The position numbers and the translations under genes were made by a program. Below the pieces are notes generated by a model, which saw only the letters and a list, made by a program, of their open reading frames with translations, made no database searches and was not told the DNA's origin. Shown here in pieces: positions 4,039 through 22,952 of a stretch of DNA of 64,000 nt. The stretch lies in the NCBI RefSeq assembly GCF_003716325.1, contig NZ_RDSR01000017.1:1-64000 (forward strand), given 5' to 3'. Every line of letters begins with the position of its first letter. Position 1 is the first letter of the stretch. This DNA comes from Cryobacterium tepidiphilum (lineage in GTDB: Bacteria > Actinomycetota > Actinomycetes > Actinomycetales > Microbacteriaceae).

Positions 4039-4971
4039 TCACGACGAGCGATGCGTCGACGCCGACATCTGCTTCGCGGCCTCCACGAGCATCCCGGTCA
4101 TCGCGTGCTCGACGGGCGTCGGACGGCTCTCTTTCATGCGGCCGAGAAGGATGCGGCGGTGCGGCACCTCGCCGGAGAGCGGCACGACCCGCACGTCGTT
4201 GCGCAGCACGCTGAGCGCGAGACGCGGCACCAGGGAGATGCCGAGGCCCACGGCCACCATCGCCTGCGCCTCCTGGTAGTCGTTCGCCTCGTAGGCGACC
4301 TTCGGGTAGAACCCGTGGTGGTTCGTCGCGCGCACGATCGCCTCGATCATCGGGTGGCGTTCGGCGCGCACCACCCAGTACTCGTCGAGGAGCTCGCGCA
4401 CTTCCACCGTCGACCGGGACGCGAGCGGGTGGTTCTTCGACACCACGAGGTCGGTGGGGTCGTCCATGAGGTGCAGGAGCGTCAGGTCGGGCAGGTCCAG
4501 CCGCGACCACTGGTACTCCCACAGCAGGCTCATCGAGATCTCCCGGCTGGTGAGGCGGTCGATGAGGGCCTGGTTGCGGAAGCTGCTCACCGAGAGTTCG
4601 ATGCTCGGATACTCGCCTCGGAACCGGCTGATCGCCGCCGGCAGCAGCGACGACCCTACCGTGGGGAAGGTGCCCATGTGCAGCGAGCCGGAGCGGACGC
4701 CCGCGATGTCGTCGAGGGAGTGCTGTAACGAACGCAGCTGACCCTGGATCTGCTCGGCGTGGTCGACGACCGCCTGACCCGCGTCGGTGAGGAAGATCCC
4801 ACGGCTGTGGCGCTGCAGAAGCGGCTGCCCGGCCTCGATCTCGAGCTTGCGGAGTTGCTGCGAGATGGCCGAGACAGAATAGCCGAGCGCATCCGCCGCC
4901 TTCGTCATCGTGCCGTGGTGCGCCACCTTCGCAAGCAGGAGCACGCGTTCGGCGCTGGCGGTTCCGATCAT
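4039..4971 (-). CDS. LysR-family transcriptional regulator
   Basis: About 310 aa. Residues ~5-64 are the LysR winged helix-turn-helix (GTMTKAADALGYSVSAISQQLRKLEIEAGQPLLQRHSRG); the remainder is the periplasmic-binding-like effector domain. It lies 25 bp downstream of, and in the same direction as, the HpcH/HpaI aldolase gene and borders the polycarboxylate island, so it probably regulates that cluster in response to a pathway intermediate. The start is supported by a TAACCT -10 box six bases before the ATG, which implies a leaderless transcript. The ligand is not predictable. Confidence 0.9.
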   Translation of the reverse strand: MIGTASAERVLLLAKVAHHGTMTKAADALGYSVSAISQQLRKLEIEAGQPLLQRHSRGIFLTDAGQAVVDHAEQIQGQLRSLQHSLDDIAGVRSGSLHMGTFPTVGSSLLPAAISRFRGEYPSIELSVSSFRNQALIDRLTSREISMSLLWEYQWSRLDLPDLTLLHLMDDPTDLVVSKNHPLASRSTVEVRELLDEYWVVRAERHPMIEAIVRATNHHGFYPKVAYEANDYQEAQAMVAVGLGISLVPRLALSVLRNDVRVVPLSGEVPHRRILLGRMKESRPTPVEHAMTGMLVEAAKQMSASTHRSS

Positions 4972-4977
4972 GAGTGA

Positions 4978-4983
4978 AGGTTA
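4978..4983 (-). promoter_or_regulatory. leaderless -10 box of the LysR gene
   Basis: Reading the minus strand, TAACCT is followed by six bases and the ATG. It sits inside GTTAGCTTAAC, whose GTTA/TAAC ends are an inverted repeat that could be an autoregulatory LysR half-site pair. Confidence 0.5.
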
Positions 4984-4996
4984 GCTTAACGGATGC

Positions 4997-5785
4997 TCAG
5001 CCGCGTTGCGTGAGGGCCGTGAGCTCGTCCCACCCGGCCCGGTAGGCGTTCGCCAGGATCATCTCGGGCTGGTGGTAGACGATGAACCGTGCCCCCAGCT
5101 CGATCCATTCGCGCGCGTCCTCGGGGGAGTAGGCGAGCACGCCGGCCGTTCCACCGGCGGCGGCAACCCGTCCCACGAAGTCGCGCGCGGCCGCGAGCAC
5201 GTCGGGGTGATTCGGGGCGTACCCGAGGCCGAGCTTCACCGACAGGTCGCCCCGGCCCAGCATGAGAACGTCGATGCCCTCGGCGATGATGGCCTCGACG
5301 TTCTCGAGGCCCACGGGCGTCTCGATGAGGCACACGGTCGCGACCGACTCATTCGACCAGGCCAGGAATTTTCCGAAGTCGTGCCGCTGCGCGCCGTGGC
5401 CCGAAGCCCGCGCCGCGGAGCAGAGCGTGCGGTCACCGGCCGGCGGGTAGTGTGAGAGCCGGAAGATCGCCCGCGCATCGTCCGCCGTCTCGATCATCGG
5501 CAGCACGATGCCGCCCGCACCGGTGTCGAGCGCCCAGAGGATCTCCTTCTCGTCGACGTGGCGGAGGCGCACCAGCGGCGTCACTCCCGCGGCCTCGCAG
5601 GCCCGCACCATGGTGAGCACCGTCTGCTCATCGGCGCCGGCGTGCTCCATGTCAATGATGAGGAAGTCGTACCCGATCGCACCGAGGATCTCCCCGATCG
5701 CGGGTTCCTGCAGCAGCGTGAGGCTGCCGAGCGCGATCCCGCCGTCCCGGAGCGTGCTGCTGACTCTGTTGCGCTGTGGGTACAT
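4997..5785 (-). CDS. HpcH/HpaI-family aldolase
   Basis: About 262 aa, normal size for class II metal-dependent 4-hydroxy-2-oxoacid aldolases. Visible motifs are IIDMEHAG near residue 45, GAGGIVLPMIETADDA, and LIETPVGLENVEAI...GRGDLS, which carry the metal-ligand glutamate and aspartate. Expected reaction: reversible retro-aldol cleavage giving pyruvate or oxaloacetate plus an aldehyde. ATG 5785 has a GAGGGAGCC ribosome-binding site. It is divergent from the MmgE/PrpD genes across a 126-bp gap. In this cluster it is a good candidate for the carbon-chain cleaving step, an inference from neighbours. Confidence 0.88.
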   Translation of the reverse strand: MYPQRNRVSSTLRDGGIALGSLTLLQEPAIGEILGAIGYDFLIIDMEHAGADEQTVLTMVRACEAAGVTPLVRLRHVDEKEILWALDTGAGGIVLPMIETADDARAIFRLSHYPPAGDRTLCSAARASGHGAQRHDFGKFLAWSNESVATVCLIETPVGLENVEAIIAEGIDVLMLGRGDLSVKLGLGYAPNHPDVLAAARDFVGRVAAAGGTAGVLAYSPEDAREWIELGARFIVYHQPEMILANAYRAGWDELTALTQRG

Positions 5786-5911
5786 CTGAGGCTCCCTCGC
5801 TGTCGATGCGTCGTCACGACCATATCGTCCGGAGTCCGAGTTCCACACTTGACGCACCGGCCCTCGACCCGCGACGCTACTACCGGGCGTCTCCCTCACC
5901 CGCGGAGCCGA

Positions 5912-7306
5912 ATGCCCGATCCCTTCCGACAACGACGACCGGAGACGCTCATCACTGCTGCAAGCCGATTGGCCGACCATTTCACCTCGATGACCTGGGA
6001 CAGCGTGCCCACCGAACAGGCAGACCAGCTCGGGCGGTTCCTCTTCGACTACCTCGGCGTGGCGGTGAACGGCAGCCAGACGGCCACCGGGCGCATCCTG
6101 GGCGACTTCGCCGCTGAGCAGGGCGGGCCGGAACAGGCGAGCGTCATCGGCCACGCCGGGCGCGCGACGGCGGTGAACGCCGCGTTCGCCAACGCCGTGT
6201 CGGAGCACAGCATCGAACTCGACGACATCGACGAACTGGCCCTGTTCCACTACGGGCCGCCGGTGCTCTCCGCCGCGCTCGCCGTTGCGCAGTGGCAGCG
6301 CCGTGACGGGCGCGCCTTCCTGACGGCGGTCCTCGCCGGGTGCGAGGCCATGTCCCGGATCAGCCGCGCCACCAACAACGCGCTGCGCAACCGCGGCTTC
6401 CACACCACGCCCACGTGCGGTGTGTTCGGCGCGGCCGTGAGCGCCGGACTGCTGCTCGGGCTCGACCGTGACCAGCTCACCAGCGCGCTCGGCCTGGCCG
6501 GGGCGCAGGCCTCGGGACTCATGGAGATGTACGGCCCATCGATGCAGAAGCGATTCAACCCTGGCCCGGCTGCCCGAAACGGCGTCACCGCCGCCATCCT
6601 CGCGCAGAAGGGCTTCACGGGCGCCGACACGATCCTCGAGGGTGAACGCGGATTCGGGAACGCCTTCGCCGACGGCCTCGACGCCGACGCCCTGCTCGAC
6701 GGCCTCGGCACCGACATACCCGTGCTCATCGAGCACAAGCCGTACTCCGCGGCGCGCCCGATCCACAACGCGATCGACTGTGCCCTCGACATCCGCTCGC
6801 GCATGGGCGACGCCGTGCAGCGGCATGTGAGCGACATCACCGGCATCACCGTCCGCAGGCATCCCGACTGGGCCGGGTACCACCTGAACCCGGCCCCGCA
6901 GACCTTCCATGAGGCCCAGGTGAGCCTGCCGTACGCCGTCGCCGCGGCGTTCACCTTCGGCCGCGCCCTGCCCGACCAGTTCGCCGGCGAGAACCTCTGC
7001 CGGGACGACCTGCGCGCCCTCAGCGCGCGCGTCATCGTGGAGCCCGACGAGTCGTTGGCGCGCGGCGTCTCCTGCGCGATGACCGTCGACTTCGCCGACG
7101 GACGCCGCGAGACGAGCGTGGTCGACGACCCGAAAGGTTCGATCCTGAACCCGATGACGACCGCCGACCTGCGCGAGAAGTTCCGGTTTCTCACGACCGG
7201 ACTGCTGCCGGCGGATGCCCCGGAGCGGGTGGAGGCGATGGTCGCCGACCTGCCCAACCAGGCCGACCTCGACGGACTGTTCGACCTGCTGGTGGTCAAG
7301 GCATGA
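5912..7306 (+). CDS. MmgE/PrpD family protein (first copy)
   Basis: About 464 aa, all-helical MmgE/PrpD family, which includes 2-methylcitrate dehydratase PrpD and cis-aconitate decarboxylase. The family signature is seen in EHSIELDDIDELALFHYGPPVLSAALAVAQ and HTTPTCGVFGAAVSAGLLLGLD, and in HKPYSAARPIHNAIDCAL. It likely dehydrates or decarboxylates a tricarboxylic acid in the cytoplasm; which of these cannot be decided. The frame is open upstream, but ATG 5912 gives the family-typical N-terminus (ITAASRLADHF). Its stop overlaps the next start by four bases, so the two paralogues are translationally coupled. Confidence 0.88.
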   Translation: MPDPFRQRRPETLITAASRLADHFTSMTWDSVPTEQADQLGRFLFDYLGVAVNGSQTATGRILGDFAAEQGGPEQASVIGHAGRATAVNAAFANAVSEHSIELDDIDELALFHYGPPVLSAALAVAQWQRRDGRAFLTAVLAGCEAMSRISRATNNALRNRGFHTTPTCGVFGAAVSAGLLLGLDRDQLTSALGLAGAQASGLMEMYGPSMQKRFNPGPAARNGVTAAILAQKGFTGADTILEGERGFGNAFADGLDADALLDGLGTDIPVLIEHKPYSAARPIHNAIDCALDIRSRMGDAVQRHVSDITGITVRRHPDWAGYHLNPAPQTFHEAQVSLPYAVAAAFTFGRALPDQFAGENLCRDDLRALSARVIVEPDESLARGVSCAMTVDFADGRRETSVVDDPKGSILNPMTTADLREKFRFLTTGLLPADAPERVEAMVADLPNQADLDGLFDLLVVKA

Positions 7307-8673
7307 GGGACGGCGCGACCGCGCAGCTCGCCGGCTTCGCGGCACGCCTGCGCTTCGACGACCTGCCGGACGCCGTCGTCGAGCACGCCAAGCTGTGCCT
7401 GCTCGACACAATCGGCTGCGGGCTGTTCGGATCGACCCTTCCGTGGGTGGAAATCCTGCGCGAGACGATCGCTGCCGTCGACGACGGTCGTCGCGCGCGC
7501 CTGTGGGGGAGCGGTGGGGCCGCATCCGTCCCGAATGCCGCGCTCATCAACGGAACCGCCGTGCACGCCTTCGAACTCGACGACCTGCACCCGCGCTCGA
7601 TCCTGCACCCGGGCGCGGTCGTGGTGAGCGCCGCCATGGCGGCGGCCGCGCACACCGGCTCGCGCTCGGGACGGGATCTCGTGACCGCGCTCGTCGCGGG
7701 CTACGAGGTCGGTTCGCGGGTGGGGATGTCGATGGGGGCGGCGCACCTGTCGCAGGGCTGGCACCCCACCGGAACACACGGCACCCTCGCGGCAGCCGCG
7801 GGCGCCGGCTCGATGCTGGGGCTGGGCGACGACCAGATGCTCCACGCCCTCGGCACCGCCGGTTCGCAGTCGTCCGGGCTGATGTCCGCCCAGTTCTCGT
7901 CGATGGTCAAGCGGCTGAACGCGGGCCATGCCGCGCAGTCGGGCGTCACCGCCGCCCTGCTCGCGGAGCACGGCTTCCTGGGCATCCCCGACCTGCTCGA
8001 GAACAGCTACGGCGGTTACCTGTCCACGTTCTCGCCGAGCTCCGACATCGCCCTCGTCACCGAGGGCCTGGGGGAGGACTGGCAGGTGCTGCGGGTGGGC
8101 TTCAAGCCGTACTCGACCAACGGGAGCTGCCACCCGGCGATCGACGCACTGCTGGCGATGGAAGCGGAACACGGCATCACCGCAGCCGACGTCGACCGGG
8201 TCGAGATCGACTGCAGCACCGCCACCTTCAAGCACGTGGGCTGGCCGTACGAGCCGGTGAGCGTCACGAGCGCACAGATGAACCTTCCCTACATCGTCGC
8301 GGTCGTGCTCGCCGACGGCGACGCGTTCATCGACCAGTTCTCACCGGAGCGCATCACCGACCCGGAGCTCATCGAGTTCTCCCGGCGCGTGAAGGTGACC
8401 GCCGACCCGGAGATCGATGCGGCCGGGGACACGGCCCGGCACCTGACGAGGATCGCGGTGTTCCTGCACGACGGGCGCGTGCTCCGGGACGAGCGCAGGC
8501 ACGCGAGCGGCAGCGCCGCCTCACCGCTGCCCGCCGACGCCGTTGAGCGGAAGTTCTTCAAGCTGGCCCGCACCGCCGTTCCCGACGACGCCGCGAAGCG
8601 GATCAGGGACCTGGTCGCCACGATCGACGACCTGCCCGACCTGGCGGACTTCGCGTCCGCACTCGCCGGGTAG
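7303..8673 (+). CDS. MmgE/PrpD family protein (second copy)
   Basis: About 456 aa, paralogue of the preceding gene with motifs AFELDDLHPRSILHPGAVVVSAAMAAA and GWHPTGTHGTLAAAAGAGSMLGL. Unlike the first copy it carries the more usual GWHPTGTHG loop, so it may be the better model for the dehydratase active site, and the two could differ in substrate or act together. It starts inside the end of the first copy (ATGA overlap) and ends three bases before the convergent MFS gene. Confidence 0.88.
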   Translation: MRDGATAQLAGFAARLRFDDLPDAVVEHAKLCLLDTIGCGLFGSTLPWVEILRETIAAVDDGRRARLWGSGGAASVPNAALINGTAVHAFELDDLHPRSILHPGAVVVSAAMAAAAHTGSRSGRDLVTALVAGYEVGSRVGMSMGAAHLSQGWHPTGTHGTLAAAAGAGSMLGLGDDQMLHALGTAGSQSSGLMSAQFSSMVKRLNAGHAAQSGVTAALLAEHGFLGIPDLLENSYGGYLSTFSPSSDIALVTEGLGEDWQVLRVGFKPYSTNGSCHPAIDALLAMEAEHGITAADVDRVEIDCSTATFKHVGWPYEPVSVTSAQMNLPYIVAVVLADGDAFIDQFSPERITDPELIEFSRRVKVTADPEIDAAGDTARHLTRIAVFLHDGRVLRDERRHASGSAASPLPADAVERKFFKLARTAVPDDAAKRIRDLVATIDDLPDLADFASALAG

Positions 8674-8676
8674 CGC

Positions 8677-9858
8677 TCAGCCGTCCGCCGCTGCGGTCGA
8701 GTTCGGAACCGCCGAACTCGACCAGGCGGCGAACGCCAGGAGGATCCCGGTGGCCACCAGCACGCCCGGCGCGCCGGTCGCACTCGCGAACGTGCCGACC
8801 GTCGCCGGAAGGGCCGTCTGCCCCAGCCGGTTTGACGCCAGCCTCATCGACATCGCGAGACCGCGCGTTCCCGGCGGCGCGAGATCCGACACCCACGACA
8901 GGGTGATCGGCTGGCAGGTTCCCATCACGAACCCGTACACGCCCGACAGCACGACGAGCCAGAGCGGGGGCAGGGGAAGCGCGATGCACGCCAGCGCGAG
9001 CGCGGAGACGCTGATCGTCGAGATCAGCAGCCGCCGTCGCCCGGCCAGGAGCACCATGCGCCCCAGGGACAACCGCGAGGCCATCGACATCACCGAACGC
9101 GCGACGAGCATGGCGCTCACGACACCCGTCGAGATGCCGCGCTCGTGGCCGAGCGCGGGCGTGTAGGCGAGGAAGATGTCGAGCGACGAGAGCACAATGC
9201 TCGTGGCGATGAGGGACTGCGGGAGACCCCGGGTGCGCAGCAGTACGCCCGCGGTGCTGAGCATGCCGGGCGGCGACTCCGGCCGGTCGTGCGGCGAGCT
9301 CGTCATGAACAGCGACATCACCAGCATGGCGATGCTCAATGCCCCGCAGGACAGGAAGATCAGGTGCAGCGGCGGCAGCGACTCGGTGCCGCCGGGGAGG
9401 ACTAGCAGCAGCGGGCCCAGTGTCTGGCCGACCGACGCCGAGAACGTGTAGAGGCCGAAGACCGAGTCGAACTTCTGCCGGTTGGTGGTGTTCCCGACCA
9501 TCGCCTGCTGTCCGATGAGCGACACCAGGTGGCCGAGCCCGAGCAGCGCCGTGGCGACGATGATCAGGGCAACGGATGACAGGCCCGTCGTCGCGAGGAT
9601 CGTCGCGGCGACGATGGCGATGGCACCGGCAACCAGCAGCCACCGTTCGCCGAAGCGGTCGTTCACGTGCCCGACCGGGAGCGCCAGCAGCAGCCCCGGC
9701 AGCGCGAACGCCGCCGAGATCACGCCGAGCAACGCGGGCGACGCGCCGGCGTCGAGGGCCGCGTACGACAGGCTGGGGCGCATGGCGTACACGATCGCCT
9801 GGATGATCACGGCCTGCGACAGGATGAGCAGCAGGCGGAGGGGAGGGGTGCGGGTCAC
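8677..9858 (-). CDS. MFS transporter
   Basis: About 393 aa with roughly 12 hydrophobic segments. The loop-2/3 motif GHVNDRFGERW matches MFS motif A. GTG 9858 follows an AAGG ribosome-binding sequence. It sits between the MmgE/PrpD pair and the Ldh2-type dehydrogenase, so it probably moves a carboxylate used or released by the island. A second transport system (TctC/TctA) lies 3.5 kb away, which suggests either two substrates or import plus export. Specificity unknown. Confidence 0.85.
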   Translation of the reverse strand: MTRTPPLRLLLILSQAVIIQAIVYAMRPSLSYAALDAGASPALLGVISAAFALPGLLLALPVGHVNDRFGERWLLVAGAIAIVAATILATTGLSSVALIIVATALLGLGHLVSLIGQQAMVGNTTNRQKFDSVFGLYTFSASVGQTLGPLLLVLPGGTESLPPLHLIFLSCGALSIAMLVMSLFMTSSPHDRPESPPGMLSTAGVLLRTRGLPQSLIATSIVLSSLDIFLAYTPALGHERGISTGVVSAMLVARSVMSMASRLSLGRMVLLAGRRRLLISTISVSALALACIALPLPPLWLVVLSGVYGFVMGTCQPITLSWVSDLAPPGTRGLAMSMRLASNRLGQTALPATVGTFASATGAPGVLVATGILLAFAAWSSSAVPNSTAAADG

Positions 9859-9931
9859 AGACGGCCTTGCGTATTCATGAACGATGGGTTAAGGGATTGG
9901 CGACAGCCGGGGCTCCTGCGGCGGGCGCGCC

Positions 9932-11017
9932 TCAGGCGGCGGCCCCGTCCGGGTCGGCGATGGTGAACGCGACGCCGCACGTTCCGGCGAGCGTGCGGAG
10001 GTCCTCGAACGTCTTGTCGGGCAGCGAGACGCCGGCCTCGCGACTGGCGGCCTCCGCCCGTGCCTCGAGCTCGCCCGGGTAGAAGATCTCCGCCACTCCC
10101 GCCGCGCGCGGCACGGCCTTGGTGGAGTCGATGAGGTCGTCGATCCGCTCCCCGAACGCCGCGTCGCCGAGCATGGTGTCGACCTTGAGCGCGACGACGA
10201 GCTGCCCGCACCCGCTCGATCCCTCGGGGACATAGGGGCCGACGACGCCCGTGGCGAAGGAGCTCCCGGTCAGCACGCCCGACAGGATGTCCATCATGAA
10301 CGAGATGCCGTAACCCTTGTGGCCCCCCACCGGCAGCATGATCCCCTCGAGGGCCGCCTTCGGATCCGTCGTCGGCGCACCGTCGCGATCGATCGCCCAG
10401 TCGGAGGGGATCGGCTGCCCCTTCTCGAGGGCGGAATAGATCTTTCCGCGGGCGACGCTCGTGTTGGCGATGTCGAGGATGACGGGCGGGTGGCTGCCGC
10501 CGGGCGCGGCGATGGACCACGGGTTCGCGCCCACCGTCTTCTCCTTGCCGCCCCACGGCGCCATCGCCGGGCTGCTGTTGGTGGTGAGGATGCCCACGCA
10601 GCCGGCGTCCGCCATCCGCCTGGTCCAGTAGGCGGCCGTGCCGAAGTGGTTGCTGTTGCGAACGGCCACGACGCCCACCCCGTGTGCCCCGGCACGCCGG
10701 ACGGCGTCGTCGCAGGCGAGGCTCGTGAGCACCTGGCCGATGCCGTCGTGCCCGTCCATGACGGCGAGTGCCCCCGTGTCCACGACCGTGGTCGGGCGGG
10801 TGACGGACTGCATGGCGCCGGAACGGAGCCGCGCCGCATACCAGGGGAGACGAAGCATGCCGTGGGAGGCATGCCCCATCATGTCGGCGGTGACGAGGCT
10901 GTCGCTCACGAGGACGGCATCGTCCTCGGGAACGCCGAGCGCGACGAGGATGCCCGTTCCGAGCGAGGTGAGGGCCGTGGGGGAGACCAGGTGGACGGTG
11001 GATGGAATCTGGGACAT
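9932..11017 (-). CDS. malate/L-lactate dehydrogenase (Ldh2) family oxidoreductase
   Basis: About 361 aa. Family motifs are GHASHGMLRLPWYAARL near residues 50-65, the catalytic-region SNHFGTAAYWTRR, and GANPWSIAAPGG. The family (malate, sulfolactate, ureidoglycolate and 2,3-diketogulonate reductases) interconverts 2-hydroxy and 2-oxo acids with NAD(P)H. An AAGGATG ribosome-binding site precedes ATG 11017. It is divergent from the PrpF-type gene across a 201-bp region with phased repeats. Its substrate is probably an intermediate of the island. Confidence 0.88.
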   Translation of the reverse strand: MSQIPSTVHLVSPTALTSLGTGILVALGVPEDDAVLVSDSLVTADMMGHASHGMLRLPWYAARLRSGAMQSVTRPTTVVDTGALAVMDGHDGIGQVLTSLACDDAVRRAGAHGVGVVAVRNSNHFGTAAYWTRRMADAGCVGILTTNSSPAMAPWGGKEKTVGANPWSIAAPGGSHPPVILDIANTSVARGKIYSALEKGQPIPSDWAIDRDGAPTTDPKAALEGIMLPVGGHKGYGISFMMDILSGVLTGSSFATGVVGPYVPEGSSGCGQLVVALKVDTMLGDAAFGERIDDLIDSTKAVPRAAGVAEIFYPGELEARAEAASREAGVSLPDKTFEDLRTLAGTCGVAFTIADPDGAAA

Positions 11018-11218
11018 GGCAGCATCCTTGCACGCGCGGAACCGCCCTCCGGCGCGCGATCAGTCATAAAGAACTGCTTAAGTGTCCGTGCACAACTCTG
11101 GACTTGCTTAAGTGGGCTTGACAGTCCAAGTTTGTAGAAACCGATTCCAGCGGGTGTGCTTCACACCGTGATCCAGCCCCTGGTGCCTGTGTCGTCCTGT
11201 AGCCAAAGAGGTCTTGAG
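11018..11218. promoter_or_regulatory. divergent control region with phased direct repeats
   Basis: The core TGCTTAAGTG occurs twice, at 11075-11084 and 11105-11114, exactly 30 bp apart, about three DNA turns. Each copy contains the palindrome CTTAAG. Between them GTCC...GGAC forms a further inverted repeat around GTGCAC. A TTGACA hexamer is at 11118-11123, but I see no convincing -10 at the right distance. The layout suggests an operator pair serving both divergent transcripts. Confidence 0.55.
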
Positions 11219-12358: not shown

Positions 12359-12415
12359 ACACCCCAGTTCCTGTCCCCCCGGATTGGGAACGTTGCACCT
12401 ACAAGGGAGTAGAAC

Positions 12416-13549: not shown

Positions 13550-13560
13550 CACCTGATGCC

Positions 13561-13599: not shown

Positions 13600-13646
13600 C
13601 CCTTCATTCGCGAACCCGCCCAAGAAGCCACAAGGACAACCAGTCA

Positions 13647-15635: not shown

Positions 15636-15648
15636 AAGAGAGAAGAAC

Positions 15649-17205
15649 ATGAACGACTCAAGCGCGGGGCAGTCCCGCACGGTCAACGACGACTATGACG
15701 TCGTGGTGGTGGGGGCGGGGAACGCCGCCCTGGTCTCGGCGCTGGCGGCCAAGGACGCCGGCGCGAAGGTGCTGGTGCTCGAAGCCGCACCCGAGGCGGA
15801 GCGCGGCGGCAACAGCCGCTTCACCGGCGGCATCTTCCGCATCGCGCACGAGGGCATGGACTCGCTGCTGCCGCTGATCACTGAAGAATCCGCCGAGTGG
15901 AAGGACCGGGTCGTCGTCAAGCCGTACCCGGTCGAGGTGTACCGCGCCGAATACGACCACGTCTGCCGTGGCCGCAACGACGACGGCCTCACCCGCCACA
16001 CCATCGAGGACTCCTACGCAACCGTCAAGTGGATGGTGGACCACGGCATCCGCTTCGAACTGACCGTCGGCAAGCTCATCGACCCGGAGAAGATCAGCGG
16101 CGACGAGCGCTACGAGTTGCCGCCGGGCGGCGCGCTCCGCGCCCGGGACGAGGGCGTCGGCCTCATCGAGGACCTCTTCGAGGCCGTGGAGAAGGCCGGC
16201 ATCGACGTCTGGTACGACTCGCCGGTGTGCGAGCTGATCATGGAGGGCTCCACCTGCCGCGGCGTCGTCATCCAGAACATCGACGGCTTCACCGAGGTGC
16301 ACGCCGTGCCGGTGCTCGCCGCGGGCGGTTTCGAGGCGAATCCGGAGATGCGCAACCGCTGGCTCGGCCCCGGCTGGGACCTCGTCAAGGTGCGCGGCAC
16401 CAAGTACAACATGGGTGCCGTTCTCAACGCGGCGATGGACGCAGGCGCGAAGCCGGTCGGGCACTGGGGCGGCTGCCACGCCGTGCCGCTCGACGCCAAC
16501 GCGCCCGACGTCGGCGACCTGCGCCTGACCGACAAGATGAGCCGCTACAGCTACCCCTTCGCGCTGCTGATCAACTCCGACGCCGAGCGCTTCGTCGACG
16601 AGGGCGAGAACCACGTCTGGCTCACGTACGCAAAGACCGGCCGGGCCGTGCTGGCCCAGCCCGGTGCCTGGGCGTTCCAGCTGTTCGACCAGAAGGTCGC
16701 GCACCTGCTCGAGCCGCGCTACTCCACCGGCACCCCGATCGTCGCCGACACGCTGCCGGAGCTCGCCGAGAAGCTCGGCGTGGGCGCCGACGCGCTCGTG
16801 CAGACGGTGGACACCTACAACGCGGCGTGCTCGGGCGGGGACTTCAACCCCTTCGAGACCGACGGGCTGAGCGCCACCCCCGACGGCCAGCCGGTCAAGT
16901 CGAACTGGGCGCAGCCGATCGACCAGGGCCCGTTCATCGCCTACACCGTGACCTGCGGCATCACCTTCACGTTCGGGGGCCTCAAAATCGACAACCAGGC
17001 GCGGGTCAAGGACAACGCCGAACGCGTCATGCCCGGGCTCTACGCCACGGGCGAGCTCACCGGCGGGTTCTTCTACCACAACTACCCGGCCGGTGCCGGG
17101 CTCGTGCGCGGTGCCGTCTTCGGCCGCCTCGCCGGGGCCGGAGCCGCGGCAGAAGCACTGGGAACCGGAACCGCAGCGAGCCTGGAAGAGATGGTGAACG
17201 TATGA
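15649..17205 (+). CDS. tcuA: FAD-dependent tricarballylate dehydrogenase-like protein (TcuA family)
   Basis: About 518 aa. It has an N-terminal Rossmann dinucleotide fold (VVVVGAGNAALVSALAAKDAGAKVLVLE, residues ~18-45), the GGNSRFTGG loop, and the C-terminal CGITFTFGGLKI and NYPAGAGLVRG segments shared by TcuA and fumarate-reductase flavoproteins. TcuA oxidises tricarballylate to cis-aconitate. No TcuB (the partner that reoxidises the flavin) is found here. It is co-directional with tctA, and its last codons overlap the next start (ATGA). An alternative is desaturation of another polycarboxylate. Confidence 0.85.
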   Translation: MNDSSAGQSRTVNDDYDVVVVGAGNAALVSALAAKDAGAKVLVLEAAPEAERGGNSRFTGGIFRIAHEGMDSLLPLITEESAEWKDRVVVKPYPVEVYRAEYDHVCRGRNDDGLTRHTIEDSYATVKWMVDHGIRFELTVGKLIDPEKISGDERYELPPGGALRARDEGVGLIEDLFEAVEKAGIDVWYDSPVCELIMEGSTCRGVVIQNIDGFTEVHAVPVLAAGGFEANPEMRNRWLGPGWDLVKVRGTKYNMGAVLNAAMDAGAKPVGHWGGCHAVPLDANAPDVGDLRLTDKMSRYSYPFALLINSDAERFVDEGENHVWLTYAKTGRAVLAQPGAWAFQLFDQKVAHLLEPRYSTGTPIVADTLPELAEKLGVGADALVQTVDTYNAACSGGDFNPFETDGLSATPDGQPVKSNWAQPIDQGPFIAYTVTCGITFTFGGLKIDNQARVKDNAERVMPGLYATGELTGGFFYHNYPAGAGLVRGAVFGRLAGAGAAAEALGTGTAASLEEMVNV

Positions 17206-18215
17206 GCCGACTGCAGGTGGTCGTCCTCGACGACCGGGAGGGGCTCATCGGGCGCTCTCCCGGCATGACCCGGATGCGGAAACTCGCCGATGTGCGCGTG
17301 CTCACCGGATCGCTGGACCAGCTTACCGACGACCAGCTCTCCACGGTGCAGGTGCTCATGCCGATGCGGGAGCGCACCAAGCTCGATGCTGCCACGCTGG
17401 CACGGATGCCGTCGTTGGAGCTGGTGCTGCAGACGGGCGGGCACGCCTATCACCTCGACGCCGACTACACGGCCGAGCACGGCATCCCGGTGGCGCTCGG
17501 GCGTCGCGCCTACGGGCCGAAGGCGGCCATCCCGGAGCTCACCTTCGCCCTCGCGATCGATGCCCTGCGGATGATCCCGCAGGCCGACCAGTCGATGCGT
17601 GGCGGGGAGTGGAAGCCGTTCCTCGGTCGCACCCTGAGCGGTCGCACCCTCGGCATCCTCGGTTACGGGCGGCACGGAGTCAACGTGGCGCGCATCGCCA
17701 AGGCGTTCGGGATGAAGGTGCTGGCCTGGCAGCGCACGCCGGGGCAGGAGGGAACCGCGGACGTGCAACGCGTCGGACTCGACGAGCTGCTGGCAGAGAG
17801 CGACGTGCTGAGCATCCACTTGAAGCTCACCGACGAATCGCGCGGCCTGCTCGATGCGGAGAAGCTCGCCCGGATGAAGCCGGGATCGGTGCTCGTGAAC
17901 ACCGCCCGCGGCGCCATCGTTGACGAGGAGGCGCTGATCGAGGCGCTGAAGTCCGGGCCGATGTCGGCGGCGGCGCTCGACGTGTTCGCCCACGAGCCCC
18001 TTGCCGAGGACTCACCGCTGCGCTCCCTGCCGAACGTGGTGCTGACCCCGCACATCGGCTGGACCGTCGAGGAGGTGCTGACCGAGTTCGCCGACATCGC
18101 CGCCGACCAGCTGGGAGCGTACCTCGACGGACGGCTGGATCGCAAGGAGCTGCAGGACGGGGGCGTGACGCTCGCGGCCGCCGCTCACGGGGGCCTGACC
18201 GACGACGGGGCCTGA
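17202..18215 (+). CDS. D-isomer-specific 2-hydroxyacid dehydrogenase
   Basis: About 337 aa. NAD-binding core GILGYGRHGVNVARIAKAFGMKVLAWQR; catalytic-domain blocks PGSVLVNTARGAIVDEEAL, DVFAHEPL and LPNVVLTPHIGW with the catalytic histidine. Family reaction: NAD(P)H-linked interconversion of 2-oxo and D-2-hydroxy acids. ATG 17202 overlaps the TcuA stop, so it is coupled to it. With the Ldh2-type enzyme it gives the island two unrelated hydroxyacid dehydrogenases, perhaps for opposite stereoisomers (inference). Confidence 0.88.
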   Translation: MSRLQVVVLDDREGLIGRSPGMTRMRKLADVRVLTGSLDQLTDDQLSTVQVLMPMRERTKLDAATLARMPSLELVLQTGGHAYHLDADYTAEHGIPVALGRRAYGPKAAIPELTFALAIDALRMIPQADQSMRGGEWKPFLGRTLSGRTLGILGYGRHGVNVARIAKAFGMKVLAWQRTPGQEGTADVQRVGLDELLAESDVLSIHLKLTDESRGLLDAEKLARMKPGSVLVNTARGAIVDEEALIEALKSGPMSAAALDVFAHEPLAEDSPLRSLPNVVLTPHIGWTVEEVLTEFADIAADQLGAYLDGRLDRKELQDGGVTLAAAAHGGLTDDGA

Positions 18216-18235
18216 GGCGGCGTGGACGTGAGCCG

Positions 18236-18817
18236 GTGAGGAGGCGCACGGGATCGCCGCGCGACCGCCGGCACGCAGCGCTGAACGCGCTCGTGCTGTT
18301 GGCCGGCGGCTTCGCGGGTGCCGCCCTGCTCTCCGTGCTGCACGTTCCGGCCGGCGCACTGATCGGGTCGGTGCTCGGGAGCATGGCGGCGAACAAGATC
18401 GCCCAGGCCGTGGTGCGCCGCCGTGCCCGGGCGGCCACGAGACTCCCGTCCGTCTCCCGCGCCCTGCCTGCGCCGGTGCGCGTGGTCGGCCAGGTCATCC
18501 TCGGCGTGCTCGCGGGGGAGCGGCTGAACACCGAGACGCTCACCACCCTGCTGCATTCCCTTCTGCCCGTGGTGCTGAGCGTCGTGCTCATGCTCCTGCT
18601 GACGATGGCGCTGGCACGCTACCTCGTCGTGCGCCGGAACGTCGACCCGCTCACCGCCGTCATGTCCGCGGCTCCGGGCGGCATCAGCGTGCTCGCCATC
18701 ACCGCCCAGCGCCAGGGGGCCGTCATGCACGTCGTGCTGGCCATTCACCTGTTCCGGGTGCTGGTCGTGGTGCTGCTCGTGCTCCCGCTGGTGCTGCAGT
18801 GGCTGAGGGCGCACTGA
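18236..18817 (+). CDS. AbrB-family membrane protein, first half
   Basis: About 193 aa with four to six hydrophobic segments and the AbrB-duplication block LLSVLHVPAGALIGSVLGSM...SAAPGGISVLAITAQRQGA. In the membrane AbrB family the usual protein is a tandem duplication of ~350 aa; here each half is a separate gene, this one and the next. GTG 18236 is the only reasonable start after the dehydrogenase stop. The family is often found by carboxylate transport genes, but its function is not established. Confidence 0.7.
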   Translation: MRRRTGSPRDRRHAALNALVLLAGGFAGAALLSVLHVPAGALIGSVLGSMAANKIAQAVVRRRARAATRLPSVSRALPAPVRVVGQVILGVLAGERLNTETLTTLLHSLLPVVLSVVLMLLLTMALARYLVVRRNVDPLTAVMSAAPGGISVLAITAQRQGAVMHVVLAIHLFRVLVVVLLVLPLVLQWLRAH

Positions 18818-18830
18818 GGGGGAAGCGACG

Positions 18831-19352
18831 GTGACCGTGGAGTTGTTGGTGCTGCTGGCCAGCGGTGCGGCAGGGGCCGTTCTCGGCGGCCTGCTGCGAC
18901 TGCCGATGTGGCCGATCACGGGCGCGCTGCTCGGCTCGGCGGTGGCGAACGTGCTGCTCGCGACGACCGTGAGCATGCCCGCAGGGCTGAGCTTCTTCGC
19001 GCAGGTGCTCGTCGGCACCGCCGTGGGTGCATCGGTGCTGCCCGGCTTCGTGAAGCAGTTGCGCACGCTGATCCTGCCCGCCGTGGCGGTCACGGCCATC
19101 CTGGTGGCCGCGGGGCTGAGTGCGGCGGTGCTGATGAGCGCCTGGGGCCTGGTCGGGCCGCGAGAGTCCCTGCTCGGGATGATCCCGGGTGGGGTCGGGG
19201 AGATGGTGGCGGCATCCGCTGCCCTGGGCGCCGACAGTGCGCTCGTCGCCGGCATGCACGTGATCCGGCTGCTGATCACCCTGTGGACCCTGCCGCTGCT
19301 GGTGCGCTGGGCGATGTCGTGGCGGCGCGGGCCGCGCGAGGCTGAACAGTGA
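18831..19352 (+). CDS. AbrB-family membrane protein, second half
   Basis: About 173 aa, homologous in layout to the preceding gene: GGLLRLPMWPITGALLGSAVANVLL and GMIPGGVGEMVAASAALGADSALVAGMHVIR match the AbrB repeat. GTG 18831, 13 bp after the first half. Together the two would rebuild the normal duplicated protein as a heterodimer in the membrane. It ends the + strand operon and is followed by a long inverted repeat. Confidence 0.7.
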   Translation: MTVELLVLLASGAAGAVLGGLLRLPMWPITGALLGSAVANVLLATTVSMPAGLSFFAQVLVGTAVGASVLPGFVKQLRTLILPAVAVTAILVAAGLSAAVLMSAWGLVGPRESLLGMIPGGVGEMVAASAALGADSALVAGMHVIRLLITLWTLPLLVRWAMSWRRGPREAEQ

Positions 19353-19356
19353 CACG

Positions 19357-19413
19357 TGAGGGGTCGCGTATCGACCTCAAGCCGGCGTGGGAAGGTCGAT
19401 ACCCGACCCCTCA
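19357..19413. repeat. 21-bp-arm inverted repeat between convergent genes
   Basis: Arms 19357-19377 and 19393-19413 are complementary except at one position, with a 15-nt loop. It lies between the end of the AbrB pair and the end of the isopropylmalate-dehydrogenase-like gene. It may serve as a bidirectional terminator, though no T tract follows, or be a REP-like element similar in architecture to the one at 22190. Confidence 0.7.
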
Positions 19414-19462
19414 GAGTTCCGAAGGTGGCCTCGGGCCCGATCGCTCAGCCGAGCCCGATCGC

Positions 19463-20581
19463 TCAGCCGAGCGCGCCGATGACCGCCTGCGTCACCGACT
19501 CCGTGCCGCCCTCTGGGCCGCCGCTCGGCAGGATCGACACCCTGCCCGTCGCGAAGGCGCTCTCAACCGCCGCTTCGATGCGCGCCGCCGTCGCCTCCTG
19601 CCCGCAGTGCCGGAGCAGCAGCGCGCCGCTCAGGATCTGCGACACCGGGTTTGCGAGGTTCTTGCCGGCGATCATGGGTGCACTGCCATGGATCGGCTCG
19701 AAGTACGCGGCCTCGGCGCCGATGTTGCCCGACGGGCACATGCCGAGCCCGCCCACGGTGCCGGCCCCAAGGTCGCTCAGGATGTCGCCCAGGAAGTTCT
19801 CCATGACGAGCACGTCGAAGCGCTCGGGTTCGACGACGAGGGCGTGCGCCGCGGCGTCGGCGTAGAGGTGGTCGGCCTCGATGTCGGGGTACCGGGCGGC
19901 GACCTCATCGAACACGTCCCGGAACAGGGCGAAGCTGCGCAGCACGTTGCTCTTGTCGACGCAGGTCACCCGGCGCACGCCGTCGCGCGGGGCGCCGCGT
20001 CGCTGCCGCGCCTGCTCGAACGCGAAGCGCACGACCCGCTCGGTGCCGGCGCGTGTGATCAGCATCTGGTCGGATGCCGCGTGGTGGTTCCTGACGCCGG
20101 CGCCACGGGAGAGGTAGAGGCCCTCCGTGTTCTCGCGCACGATCACGTAGTCGATGGAACCGGGCTCGGAGCGCATGACGGTGCGCACGCCCGGCAGGAG
20201 GCGGATCGGGCGCACATTCGCGAAGGTGTCGAGCCCGATGCGGAGCAGCCCGCCGAGCAGTCCGCCCTCGGTGCCGTCGGGTTTCCGCACCTCGGGGAGA
20301 CCCACCGGCCCCTTGAGCACGCCATCGGCCGCGCGGAGCCGGTCGAGTGCCCCGGGCAGCAGGGCGTCGCCGGTCTCCGCGTACACCGCGGCGCCGGCGG
20401 GCTCCTCGCGCAGCACCAGCTCGACGCCGTCGCGAGCGGATGCCTCGGTCATCACCGCGAGGGCGCTTTCGACCAGCTCGGGGCCGATCCCGTCGCCGGG
20501 GATCACGCTCACCTGCACGGTGGATCGGGCGGGGGTGCCGGGGTGCCCGGCGGAGCCGGCGTCGGTGGCTGGGATGCTCAT
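19463..20581 (-). CDS. isocitrate/isopropylmalate dehydrogenase family oxidoreductase
   Basis: About 372 aa. Motifs in order: [38 protein letters not shown] with the conserved lysine, ENFLGDILSDLGAG with metal-ligand aspartates, and EPIHGSAPMIAGKNLANP. Family reaction: NAD(P)-dependent oxidation and beta-decarboxylation of a 2-hydroxyacid such as isocitrate, isopropylmalate or tartrate. True leuB lies at 56 kb, so this paralogue is catabolic. I chose ATG 20581 because AAGGAAG lies ahead of it, although ATG 20607 is open. It is divergent from the second TcuA-type gene. Confidence 0.88.
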   Translation of the reverse strand: MSIPATDAGSAGHPGTPARSTVQVSVIPGDGIGPELVESALAVMTEASARDGVELVLREEPAGAAVYAETGDALLPGALDRLRAADGVLKGPVGLPEVRKPDGTEGGLLGGLLRIGLDTFANVRPIRLLPGVRTVMRSEPGSIDYVIVRENTEGLYLSRGAGVRNHHAASDQMLITRAGTERVVRFAFEQARQRRGAPRDGVRRVTCVDKSNVLRSFALFRDVFDEVAARYPDIEADHLYADAAAHALVVEPERFDVLVMENFLGDILSDLGAGTVGGLGMCPSGNIGAEAAYFEPIHGSAPMIAGKNLANPVSQILSGALLLRHCGQEATAARIEAAVESAFATGRVSILPSGGPEGGTESVTQAVIGALG

Positions 20582-20623
20582 TCGTGTCACTTCCTTGTCG
20601 ACCATTGAGGCTGTCTCCATCAG

Positions 20624-20631
20624 TGTATACA
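20624..20631. promoter_or_regulatory. TGTATACA palindrome in divergent promoter region
   Basis: A perfect 8-bp palindrome in the 80-bp gap between the divergent dehydrogenase and second TcuA-type genes. TGTATACA is the core of operators known for GntR-superfamily regulators such as B. subtilis GntR, and a GntR/FCD gene lies 1.6 kb away, so it is a likely target (inference). Confidence 0.45.
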
Positions 20632-20661
20632 GTTGAACACAGACATTTCGAGGAGGTACGG

Positions 20662-22155
20662 ATGCCAACATCCCCCAGTTCCAGTGAGACAACCGAGCGC
20701 GTCGACGTCATCGTCGTCGGCGGCGGTAATGCCGGTTTCTCGGCCGCACATGCTGCTCGCCAGCGTGGCCGGTCGGTCGTCGTGCTCGAAAAGGGCGCGA
20801 AAGACATGTCCGGCGGCAACAGCTACTACACCGCCGGCGCCACGCGCTTCAACCACAACGGTCTCGACGACATCCGTGACTTCATCGAGCCCGACGAGCG
20901 CATTGCGGTCACCGAGGTTCCGCCGTACTCCCCGGAGGAGTATGCGGCCGACCTGGCAAAGGTGACCGGTGGCAAGAACGACCCCGACCTGACCGAGGTC
21001 ATCGTGCGGGAGAGCCAGGACACCGTCCGCTGGCTGAACTCCCTGGGCCTCAAGTACCGGCTGATGTACGAGCGGCAGGCCTACGAACGCGCCGATGGCA
21101 CCTACCTGTTCTGGGGTGGCCTGCACGTCGGAAACGTGGGCGGGGGCGAAGGCCTCATGGCCGACCACACCCGCGTCGCCGGTGAACTCGGCGTCGAGGT
21201 GCGGTACGGCGTCAACGTGACCGGGCTCGTCACCGACGGCGACACCGTCACCGGGGTGACCTACACCACCGCCGACGGCGCCGCCGGGCAGTTGAACGCC
21301 GACTCCGTCGTGCTCGCCGCGGGCGGATTCGAGACGAACCCGGAACTCCGCGAGGAGTACCTCGGCCAGGGCTGGGCCAACGCGAAGGTGCGCGGAACGC
21401 CGTACAACGACGGCTCCATGCTGGCCGCCGCCCTCGAGCTCGGCGCCCAGCGCGGCGGCGACTGGAGCACCTGCCACAGCGTGCAGTGGGACGCCTTCAC
21501 GCCTCAGAACGAGAGCAACCGTGAGCTCACCAACCGCCTCACCCGGGGCGGCTACCCGCTCGGGATCATCGTGAACAAGGCCGGCAAGCGCTTCTGCGAC
21601 GAGGGCTCCGACTTCCGCAACTACACCTACGCGAAACTCGGCAGGGAGATCCTCAAGCAGGAGGGATCCGTCGCGTGGCAGGTGTTCGACGCCACGAAGC
21701 GGCCGATGCTGCGCAGCGAGGAATATGACATGCCGGGCATCTCGGTCGAGACGGCTGACACCATCGAGGAACTCGCCGGGAAGATCGGGGTGGACAAAGA
21801 GGCCCTCGCCGCCACGATCCGCGAGTTCAATGCGTCCATCGACCTCAGCATCCCCTGGGATCCCACCATCAAGGACGGCCGGGTGGCGCACGTCGAACCG
21901 CCCAAGAGCAACTGGGCCGATCCCCTCGAGCAGGGACCGTTCTACGCCTTCGCCGTCACCTGCGGCATCACGTTCACCTTCGGGGGACTGAAGGCCGACA
22001 CGTACGGCCGGGTGCTGAACGCGGCCGGTGAGCCGATCCCCGGCCTCCTGGTGTGCGGCGAGATGCTCGGCGGCCTGTTCAGCGAGAACTACCCCGGCGG
22101 CAGCGGCCTCGCCGCGGGAATGGTGTTCGGCCGTCGCGCCGGTAGCATCGCCTGA
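20662..22155 (+). CDS. tcuA: FAD-dependent tricarballylate dehydrogenase-like protein (second TcuA paralogue)
   Basis: About 497 aa. FAD fold VDVIVVGGGNAGFSAAHAARQRGRSVVVLEKG, then MSGGNSYYTAGATRFNHNG, and the C-terminal CGITFTFGGLKADTYGRV and NYPGGSGLAAGMVFGRRAG, as in the first copy. The N-terminal GGNSYYTAGATR loop is closest to the TcuA pattern I know, so this copy is the stronger candidate for tricarballylate oxidation. Strong ribosome-binding site GAGGAGG before ATG 20662. Divergent from the dehydrogenase; followed by a 9-bp hairpin and then gntR. No TcuB partner nearby. Confidence 0.85.
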   Translation: MPTSPSSSETTERVDVIVVGGGNAGFSAAHAARQRGRSVVVLEKGAKDMSGGNSYYTAGATRFNHNGLDDIRDFIEPDERIAVTEVPPYSPEEYAADLAKVTGGKNDPDLTEVIVRESQDTVRWLNSLGLKYRLMYERQAYERADGTYLFWGGLHVGNVGGGEGLMADHTRVAGELGVEVRYGVNVTGLVTDGDTVTGVTYTTADGAAGQLNADSVVLAAGGFETNPELREEYLGQGWANAKVRGTPYNDGSMLAAALELGAQRGGDWSTCHSVQWDAFTPQNESNRELTNRLTRGGYPLGIIVNKAGKRFCDEGSDFRNYTYAKLGREILKQEGSVAWQVFDATKRPMLRSEEYDMPGISVETADTIEELAGKIGVDKEALAATIREFNASIDLSIPWDPTIKDGRVAHVEPPKSNWADPLEQGPFYAFAVTCGITFTFGGLKADTYGRVLNAAGEPIPGLLVCGEMLGGLFSENYPGGSGLAAGMVFGRRAGSIA

Positions 22156-22161
22156 GTGGCC

Positions 22162-22185
22162 GGGAGGCGGAATCGCCCGCCTCCC
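22162..22185 (+). terminator. hairpin terminator after second TcuA gene
   Basis: GGGAGGCGG (22162-22170) and CCGCCTCCC (22177-22185) form a perfect 9-bp GC stem with a 6-nt loop, seven bases after the stop codon. There is no T run. Confidence 0.5.
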
Positions 22186-22189
22186 AGCA

Positions 22190-22250
22190 CGCGAGTGAGC
22201 ACTTTCTGCGGTTATGGATGCGCTATTCCCGCAGAAACTGCTCACTCGCG
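22190..22250. repeat. 22-bp-arm inverted repeat upstream of gntR
   Basis: Arms 22190-22211 and 22229-22250 are complementary with one mismatch around a 17-nt loop. It ends 30 bp before the gntR start codon. It shares the GAGTG...CACTC ends with the REP-like units at 33.6 kb. Confidence 0.75.
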
Positions 22251-22280
22251 CCGGTCGCGAACGACGATGAGGACAGTGCT

Positions 22281-22952
22281 GTGAGTGGAGAGAACGCAAG
22301 CCCGGAGCGGGTGGACGGCGAGACGATCTTCGCCGTGCTCCGCCGCGAGATCCTGACGGGCGTGCACCCGCCCGGTGCGGCGTTCCGCGAGGTGAGCCTG
22401 TCGGAGCGGTTCGGCGTGTCACGCACCCCGGTGCGGGAGGCGCTGGGCCGGCTCCAGCACGAGCGCCTCCTGGAGCGTGCCACCCGCGGACTGCAGGTGC
22501 CGCACCTCGACCCGCAGGAGGTCATCCAGATCTACGATCTCCGCATCATGCTCGAGGAAGAGGCGGCGGGGCAGGCGGCGCAGAACCGCCGCTCTGCCGA
22601 TCTCATGCGGCTGGAGGCGCTCATGGAGCGGGACCGGGCGCTCGTGGACCCCGACAACCAGGCGCAGATCAGCACGAACCTGGAGTTCCACGCCGCCTTC
22701 TGGGCGGCCGCCCACAACCGGGTGTTGGAAGACCTTCTCGGCAGGCTTTCCACGCACTCCGTCCACGCCCCGCACTCGACCTTGTCGGTCGGTCACCGGT
22801 GGGACGACGCCCTCGACGAGCACGGGGCGCTCGTGGACGCCATCCGGAATCGCGACGTGCAGGCCGCGCGGGACATCGCGCGCAGGCACATGGAAACCGC
22901 GCGCACGCTTCGCCTGCAATTGCTGCGTGACGCGGCGGTATCCGCTGTCTAG
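22281..22952 (+). CDS. GntR-family regulator (FCD domain)
   Basis: About 223 aa. N-terminal winged helix with AFREVSLSERFGVSRTPVREALGRLQHERLLERA, the GntR signature, and a C-terminal all-helical FCD ligand domain (~95-215) with metal/acid-binding histidines in LEFHAAFW and LDEHGALVDAI...ARRHM. FCD regulators typically respond to organic acids. GTG 22281 follows GAGGA; an upstream in-frame ATG at 22218 lies inside the inverted repeat and is less likely. It is likely to control the island's second operon. Confidence 0.88.
   Translation: MSGENASPERVDGETIFAVLRREILTGVHPPGAAFREVSLSERFGVSRTPVREALGRLQHERLLERATRGLQVPHLDPQEVIQIYDLRIMLEEEAAGQAAQNRRSADLMRLEALMERDRALVDPDNQAQISTNLEFHAAFWAAAHNRVLEDLLGRLSTHSVHAPHSTLSVGHRWDDALDEHGALVDAIRNRDVQAARDIARRHMETARTLRLQLLRDAAVSAV

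Follow-up and report, generated by a model that had tools for sequence, protein, structure and literature searches.

Which pathway, if any, is encoded by a compact group of genes from polycarboxylate-related families is the question raised by contig NZ_RDSR01000017.1 of Cryobacterium tepidiphilum (RefSeq assembly GCF_003716325.1). The window analyzed is the whole stretch from position 1 to 64,000 of this contig (64,000 nucleotides), and the group in question is an island of 16 genes covering about 19 kb (4039..22952). Genes were called from open frames and the G+C content of codon positions, and families were assigned by profile searches. With a probability of roughly 60%, this is a polycarboxylate catabolic island that would combine a Tar-type core—a LysR-type regulator, a PrpF-family isomerase, and a tripartite tricarboxylate transporter (TTT)—with flavin-dependent desaturation of the TcuA type and a dedicated dehydrogenase resembling isopropylmalate dehydrogenase (IPMDH).

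This reading is carried by a comparison of nine loci, namely the window, Cryobacterium Y50 (L011), an Arthrobacter (L012), three Streptomyces (L013–L015), and the genomes G148, G244, and G526. All were selected by a close PrpF only, and the counts refer to the stretches examined. A comparison of gene order across Microbacteriaceae had been proposed beforehand as a check; here, the core LysR–PrpF–TctC–TctAB–TcuA–IPMDH, with a fused TctAB and at least one TcuA, is kept in all nine loci. As PrpF alone was used to pick them, this core is more than a chance neighborhood. At least one AbrB gene accompanies the core in seven of the nine loci. A GntR gene, adjoining or divergent from TcuA, is likewise found in seven; the two loci lacking it, Cryobacterium Y50 and Arthrobacter, were covered only to some 2 kb beyond IPMDH. 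Further members are a D-isomer-specific 2-hydroxyacid dehydrogenase (D-HADH; 5/9), a major facilitator superfamily (MFS) carrier (4/9), a second TcuA (3/9), and an aconitase (1/9, in G526). In Cryobacterium Y50, the genes for HpcH and the MFS carrier exist only as broken pieces.

Candidate promoter sites are shared among the loci as well. The LysR orthologue is directly divergent from prpF in the Arthrobacter, the three Streptomyces, and G526. In the window, the HpcH, MmgE, MFS, and Ldh_2 genes lie between LysR and prpF, and CTTAAG palindromes stand upstream of prpF at 11077 and 11107. The pentamer CTTAA, read on both strands, occurs upstream of prpF in all nine loci, compared with a mean of 1.67 of nine in first-order Markov controls, none of 2000 reaching nine. 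CTTAA had been chosen after reading these same upstream regions, and hence all 5-mers were compared: only CTTAA and ACTTA occur in all nine regions, and 200 Markov sets contain on average 0.005 such 5-mers; the promoters share ancestry, for which the Markov sets do not correct. Among hexamers, ACTTAA is found in nine and CTTAAG in eight of the nine regions. Upon removal of two of the three Streptomyces, CTTAA, ACTTA, and AGCAA remain in 7/7 (Markov mean 0.055). Taken alone, CTTAAG is not significant within the window (three found; 14 of 100 shuffles reach three), and GTATAC is found there once versus 0.98 expected by chance. Sites of the GTATAC type precede TcuA2 in four loci (window, G148, G244, and G526), and in the Streptomyces loci TcuA and prpF are each preceded by sites resembling TTGCATGCAA, both assigned by eye without a control. 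The CTTAAG palindromes are likely candidates for the LysR operators of the prpF promoter. The run from prpF to the AbrB genes has intergenic gaps of −4 to 97 bases in the window, which is consistent with a single operon, and the core module is apparently co-regulated.

The families named in the initial annotation are all present over the 19 kb (Table 1), as seen by profile searches and, for TctC, by phmmer; the TctC-like protein has no Pfam match at 0.001 and is recognized only by its phmmer match to Bug proteins. Three details are corrected. The TTT-type transporter does contain TctA, TctB, and TctC, the first two being fused into one gene; two AbrB-duplication membrane proteins at 18236–19352 had been overlooked; and of three regulatory elements claimed, two regulators are found among the called genes (LysR and GntR-FCD). 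Elsewhere in the window (25153–27605), a gene for a flavin adenine dinucleotide (FAD) amine-oxidase/carotenoid-type protein overlaps a gene for an F420-dependent luciferase-like monooxygenase (LLM) oxidoreductase.

Table 1. Genes and candidate regulatory sites of the island (window coordinates)
Feature	Coordinates	Strand	Family and remarks
LysR-type regulator	4039..4971	-	PF00126/PF03466
HpcH/HpaI class II pyruvate aldolase family, optional add-on	4997..5785	-	PF03328; HpaI/GarL models below cut-off
MmgE/PrpD protein 1 (MmgE1)	5990..7306	+	PF03972/PF19305
MmgE/PrpD protein 2 (MmgE2), overlaps protein 1	7303..8673	+	PF03972/PF19305; iminodisuccinate (IDS) epimerase is the best solved relative
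MFS carrier	8677..9858	-	PF07690; 61% identical copy at C12 of the same genome
Ldh_2-family 2-hydroxyacid dehydrogenase	9932..11017	-	PF02615; 75% identical copy adjoining AcnA at C12
Two CTTAAG palindromes, candidate LysR operators of the prpF promoter	11077..11112	none	
PrpF-family double-bond isomerase	11219..12358	+	PF04303
TctC/Bug-type solute-binding protein, likely lipoprotein (LAGC, by eye)	12416..13549	+	phmmer to BugD 2f5x, E=2.5e-11
TctA–TctB fused permease	13647..15635	+	PF01970, 385.3 bits; PF07331, 30.2 bits (cut-off 29.1)
TcuA-like FAD dehydrogenase 1 (TcuA1)	15649..17205	+	NF006130, 497.8 bits (cut-off 369)
D-HADH	17202..18215	+	PF02826/PF00389
AbrB-duplication membrane protein 1	18236..18817	+	PF05145, TIGR03082
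AbrB-duplication membrane protein 2, GTG chosen as start	18837..19352	+	PF05145, TIGR03082
IPMDH/isocitrate-dehydrogenase-family enzyme, distinct substrate-helix motif	19463..20605	-	PF00180
Divergent IPMDH/TcuA2 promoter; TGTATACA at 20624-20631, candidate GntR operator	20606..20661	none	
TcuA-like FAD dehydrogenase 2 (TcuA2)	20662..22155	+	NF006130, 550.9 bits (cut-off 369)
GntR-FCD regulator	22218..22952	+	PF00392/PF07729

At the level of single enzymes, the IPMDH-like protein is the most distinctive member. Its helix DGTE(G/A)GLLGGLLRxGLDTFANVRP is present in 9/9 orthologues, and none of eight further family members used for comparison has it; a similar version, GVLGGILRNGLDAYANIRP, is carried by the more distant IPMDH of genome G061. 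The enzyme falls below the cut-offs of all 16 curated models listed, including those for LeuB (NF002898, 297 versus 393; TIGR00169, 247.3 versus 353.2). Both TcuA-like proteins exceed the cut-off of NF006130. PrpF keeps the lysine of SSTSK (Glu in 5k87) and the cysteine motif NCGN, the Lys and Cys being presumably catalytic. The labels TcuA, PrpF, and LeuB are only approximate in such loci.

Known substrates of MmgE/PrpD proteins share a 1,4-dicarboxylate C4 core according to the excerpt of PMC12290011. Aligned by eye with the family members as excerpted there, both MmgE proteins keep six substrate-binding positions (His/acidic/His/His/Lys/Lys), and the position of the catalytic Tyr145 of IDS epimerase is occupied by Arg in MmgE1 and by Leu in MmgE2. 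Since the catalytic Tyr is missing in both, the pair is rejected as epimerases, and lyase chemistry would be expected instead. The PrpD model NF042438 scores the two proteins at 30.6 and 60.9 versus a cut-off of 950.

Hydratase genes are linked to this set in relatives and in the genome itself. In G526, an aconitase gene is located between IPMDH and TcuA2, inside the island. Its product is 76% identical to the AcnA encoded near PrpF, AbrB, and TctA/TctB on the Rhodococcus opacus plasmid pLP414 and shares 72% identity with the C26 AcnA of C. tepidiphilum (tblastn). The genome of C. tepidiphilum contains three aconitase-family genes, including those at C12 and C26. The C12 locus (155000–172000; L069) reads ABC transporter–IPMDH-family–Ldh_2–AcnA, and its Ldh_2 and MFS proteins are 75% and 61% identical to those of the island. 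It further contains a sensor kinase with a DpiA-like regulator, a citrate-synthase-family gene, and a PrpD-like gene scoring 847.5 bits versus the cut-off of 950. Judged by its genes, C12 is a second polycarboxylate locus of the same genome.

Outside Actinomycetota, the most complete counterpart seen lies on plasmid pbSHIWSC3 of Shinella, an alphaproteobacterium (185–234 kb). It comprises TcuB–TcuA, AcnA, PrpF, GntR, AbrB, LysR, Ldh_2, D-2-HADH, an RraA-type protein, IPMDH, a second PrpF-family protein, TctA, and TctC; Pfam matches are obtained for RraA-like, TctA, TctC, Iso_dh, and AbrB, and no MmgE, HpcH, or MFS is annotated within 49 kb. The length of its TctA permease fits a fusion to TctB, which scores 25.1 bits, below the cut-off of 29.1. 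Identities to the window proteins are 46% for TctC, 35% for TctAB, 44% and 36% for the two PrpF proteins, 34 to 36% for TcuA, 40% for Ldh_2, 42% for D-HADH, and 37% for IPMDH, the last being 48% identical to the IPMDH-family protein of C12. Plasmid neighborhoods were read for eight of 336 PrpF records (H1, H2, H4, H5, H10, H18, H19, and H24), picked non-randomly from 30 listed rows. Most of the set is found in H24 and part of it in H1, H2, H5, and H19; H18 is unannotated, and H4 and H10 have no annotated TTT, TcuA, IPMDH, or aconitase. A Hydrogenophaga plasmid shows the order TctC–TcuA–LeuC–LeuD–TctC–PrpF. For IPMDH, six of 712 plasmid records were read (H33, H34, H37, H45, H48, and H52), likewise picked non-randomly from 30 listed rows and leaving out the two best (50%). 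On alphaproteobacterial plasmids, IPMDH-family genes 45 to 49% identical to that of the window lie in or beside 3-oxo-tetronate kinase clusters (L082, L083, and L085).

The island is rare and patchily distributed. PrpF was searched in 299 genomes of the family (E up to 1e-60) and in 396 genomes of the order and 394 of the class (E up to 1e-90), these sets overlapping. Identities of 75% or more are found in three of the 299 (own, G148, and G244), and 75% is also reached by G526 in the order and class searches; eight further family genomes contain a PrpF at 41 to 44%, and five other genomes of the genus among the 299 have no PrpF match at 1e-60. Scanning species genomes with only PrpF as query gives seven loci, five at 62 to 88% identity with the island and two at 42 to 44% without it. 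The latter two (L016, 44%; L017, 42%) show weak aconitase-family matches in the locus (27–28%, longer pieces), and L016 has PrpF–MmgE pairs. IPMDH at 58% or more is restricted to four of the 299 genomes, namely own, G148, G244, and G061, a 75%-complete genome whose 15.7 kb contig carries no other island genes.

Of the family genomes whose PrpF is distant, all eight were examined in short loci and three over about 19 kb. A simple arrangement, in L087 (Microbacteriaceae), is LysR divergent from PrpF–TctC–TctAB only. L088 has the divergent LysR and PrpF with an unassigned 467-residue open frame, and L089 adds to the same pair an unassigned frame of 477 residues and a TcuA that shares 71% identity with TcuA2 of the window. 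A search for an empty site with the flanking glycosyltransferase DNA in the same genus gave, outside the own genome, only matches of 30 to 111 bases; any match was found in 18 of 57 genomes of the genus, own included. The island may have spread horizontally.

MmgE2 homologues at 58 to 66% occur in three of the 299 family genomes besides the own one (G244, G060, and G285). In G060 and G285, an MmgE1-like neighbor stands beside the MmgE2 homologue, and there is no PrpF match at 1e-60. In G060 (L071, 5196–11201), genes for a phosphoenolpyruvate (PEP)-mutase/isocitrate lyase (ICL)-family protein and a DUF6282 protein lie between the MmgE1- and MmgE2-like genes, and in G101, two MmgE genes adjoin a TcuA.

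The characterized namesakes TcuA, PrpF, IPMDH, and aconitase act on substituted C4 1,4-dicarboxylates. From the families, gene order, conservation, catalytic residues, and linked hydratase genes described above, a route can be proposed. TctC and TctAB would take up either a substituted succinate or an acid of the aconitate type, into which the TcuA-like flavoproteins would introduce a double bond. PrpF may then shift or flip this double bond into a form acceptable to a hydratase, and water would be added by an aconitase (encoded within the island in G526 and at C12 and C26 here) or possibly by the MmgE pair. The resulting 3-substituted malate would be oxidatively decarboxylated to a 2-oxo acid by the IPMDH-like enzyme. 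Optionally, D-HADH and Ldh_2 might interconvert 2-hydroxy and 2-oxo forms of opposite chirality, and HpcH might cleave a 4-hydroxy-2-oxo acid.

A scheme of uptake, desaturation, isomerization, hydration, and oxidation had already been put forward in the initial annotation. It gains support from the co-occurrence of the core, the aconitase of the G526 island, the IPMDH–Ldh_2–AcnA cluster at C12, and the Shinella set. The retro-aldol cleavage also proposed there has its HpcH gene in the window; since HpcH is found in only two of the nine loci and is broken in one, this step would be only an optional extension. The statement that no described pathway has this combination agrees with searches of an open-access library, which listed no paper recognized as describing it. 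The most likely substrate is tricarballylate, trans-aconitate, or both, or else a substituted homologue.

Several points weigh against this reading. Among the genes of the window island, neither an aconitase nor a TcuB is found, and genome-wide searches with TIGR02484 and with the Shinella TcuB gave no TcuB, neither with a positive control (the TIGR02484 search matched one of 14 control genomes, below cut-off). The other TcuA model, TIGR02485, scores TcuA1 at 269.4 and TcuA2 at 258.8, below its cut-off of 372.55, and the island PrpF scores almost alike against PA0793 (2h9f; 310.5 bits), methylitaconate isomerase (307.7), and PrpF (303.7). Minority members are the MmgE pair (2/9; window and G244), HpcH (2/9), and Ldh_2 (4/9); together with D-HADH (5/9), these counts argue against one pathway using every family listed initially, and the MmgE, HpcH, MFS, and hydroxyacid dehydrogenase genes count as optional. 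Moreover, neither PrpF nor a TTT permease is annotated in the six plasmid contexts of relatives of the IPMDH-like enzyme at 42 to 49%, and three such relatives lie beside 3-oxo-tetronate genes, which indicates an enzyme group that is not tied to polycarboxylates. Finally, for plain tricarballylate or aconitate, a dedicated IPMDH should be unnecessary in a host with a tricarboxylic acid cycle.

The last point leads to the tentative alternative that the substrate is a substituted homologue, such as an alkyl- or hydroxy-tricarballylate or an alkylsuccinate. Herein, the IPMDH-like enzyme would be specific for a substituted malate, and a side-chain hydroxyl would allow cleavage by HpcH. The dedicated enzyme in all nine loci, with its distinct helix conserved from Streptomyces to Microbacteriaceae, hints at such a relative of tricarballylate or trans-aconitate, and the HpcH here and the RraA-type protein of Shinella also fit it. 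However, HpcH is confined to two loci, the LysR, PrpF, and TTT set of L087 resembles a trans-aconitate system, and the identity of the G526 island aconitase to the AcnA of C26 suggests an ordinary aconitate-like substrate. If true, this would mean a carbon source not yet described, served by a decarboxylating dehydrogenase of its own. It is likewise conceivable, if speculative, that the island represents an undescribed full side pathway for a substituted tricarballylate or alkylsuccinate, horizontally spread between Actinomycetota and Alphaproteobacteria, in which desaturation, isomerization by PrpF, hydration, decarboxylation by a new IPMDH subfamily, and cleavage by a pyruvate aldolase would follow each other; such a pathway would be a dedicated counterpart of the oxidative-decarboxylation logic of citrate and leucine metabolism.

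A route for 2-hydroxyacids or hydroxy-polycarboxylates, in which D-HADH and Ldh_2 would racemize the substrate and PrpF and TcuA would be secondary, appears improbable. TTT, Ldh_2, and D-HADH do occur together in four of the nine loci and in Shinella, and the best NCBIfam model for Ldh_2 is L-sulfolactate dehydrogenase (NF040650); its score is only 272.8 versus a cut-off of 500, and G526 and the three Streptomyces stretches dispense with both dehydrogenases and retain PrpF, TcuA, and IPMDH. A precedent is described in the excerpt of PMC5812351, where slcHFG is a sulfolactate TTT; in a bacterium with this transporter, two sulfolactate dehydrogenases reportedly act together as a racemase. Very improbable is a loose cluster of polycarboxylate genes that have no relation to each other and were brought together by transfer, without a single pathway. 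The varying add-on genes, the MmgE pair occurring elsewhere too, and the broken HpcH and MFS genes of Cryobacterium Y50 would fit such a cluster; the core in 9/9 loci, the short gaps in the prpF-to-AbrB run, the operator candidates common to the loci, and the similar gene set in an alphaproteobacterium all speak against it. The polycarboxylate island with a Tar-type core, TcuA-type desaturation, and a dedicated IPMDH-like enzyme remains the preferred reading, and a short list of candidate substrates is now available.

Compared with known systems, the island matches none completely. With the methylcitrate cycle (prpBCD, acnD-prpF) it shares PrpF, PrpD-superfamily proteins, and, in some relatives, an aconitase near PrpF; however, its MmgE proteins are far below the PrpD cut-off, and a PrpD-like gene with a citrate-synthase-family gene is found at C12. 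This cycle is rejected because no PrpB, PrpC, or AcnD is found among the island genes and the PrpD cut-off is missed. For a 4-oxalomesaconate route, no ring-cleavage or LigJ-type gene is identified among the island genes, and for sulfolactate (slc) catabolism, no desulfonating enzyme is found among them, the rest of the genome lying outside the search. Methylsuccinate isomerase, IDS epimerase, and cis-aconitate decarboxylase have the conserved carboxylate-binding residues and catalytic His/Lys in common with the MmgE proteins, which differ by the missing catalytic Tyr and by being encoded in two overlapping genes, so that a one-base lyase type is more likely than an epimerase. The β-decarboxylating dehydrogenases (LeuB, tartrate, homoisocitrate, and isocitrate dehydrogenase) share PF00180 with the island enzyme, and LeuC–LeuD stand beside TcuA and PrpF on the Hydrogenophaga plasmid; the island enzyme differs in its substrate-recognition helix and in its scores below all curated cut-offs listed.

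The Tcu system of Salmonella (tcuRABC) resembles the island in its FAD dehydrogenase TcuA, to which the island proteins are TcuA-like by one of two models, and in its LysR-family regulator, TcuR being LysR-type. Salmonella TcuA reportedly converts tricarballylate to cis-aconitate. In contrast, the island has two TcuA paralogues, added PrpF, TTT, and IPMDH, and no TcuB found; TcuB is described as an FADH2:quinone oxidoreductase, and a plain Tcu system is rejected because none is encoded in the island. In Cryobacterium Y50, a gene for an electron transfer flavoprotein (ETF) domain directly follows IPMDH (L011:18084-18860), whose product might be an electron acceptor of TcuA or that of a mere neighbor. 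A similar plan is that of Tar in Bacillus velezensis (tarR-tarAB), where, according to PMC11495376, a LysR gene is transcribed divergently from genes for an aconitate isomerase of the PrpF superfamily and for an importer, and the promoter holds three TTATAA palindromes. Compared with this description, the island has a CTTAAG instead of a TTATAA palindrome, a TTT transporter, added TcuA, IPMDH, AbrB pair, and GntR, and, in the window, LysR and prpF parted by inserted genes. With Tar, as described there, the loci of the Arthrobacter, the three Streptomyces, and G526 share a LysR gene directly divergent from that of a PrpF-superfamily isomerase, together with a transporter, and the CTTAAG hexamers may be counterparts of the Tar palindromes; L087 follows the same plan. 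Three separately studied families—Tar-type PrpF, TcuA, and the IPMDH-like dehydrogenases—are joined here in one conserved module.

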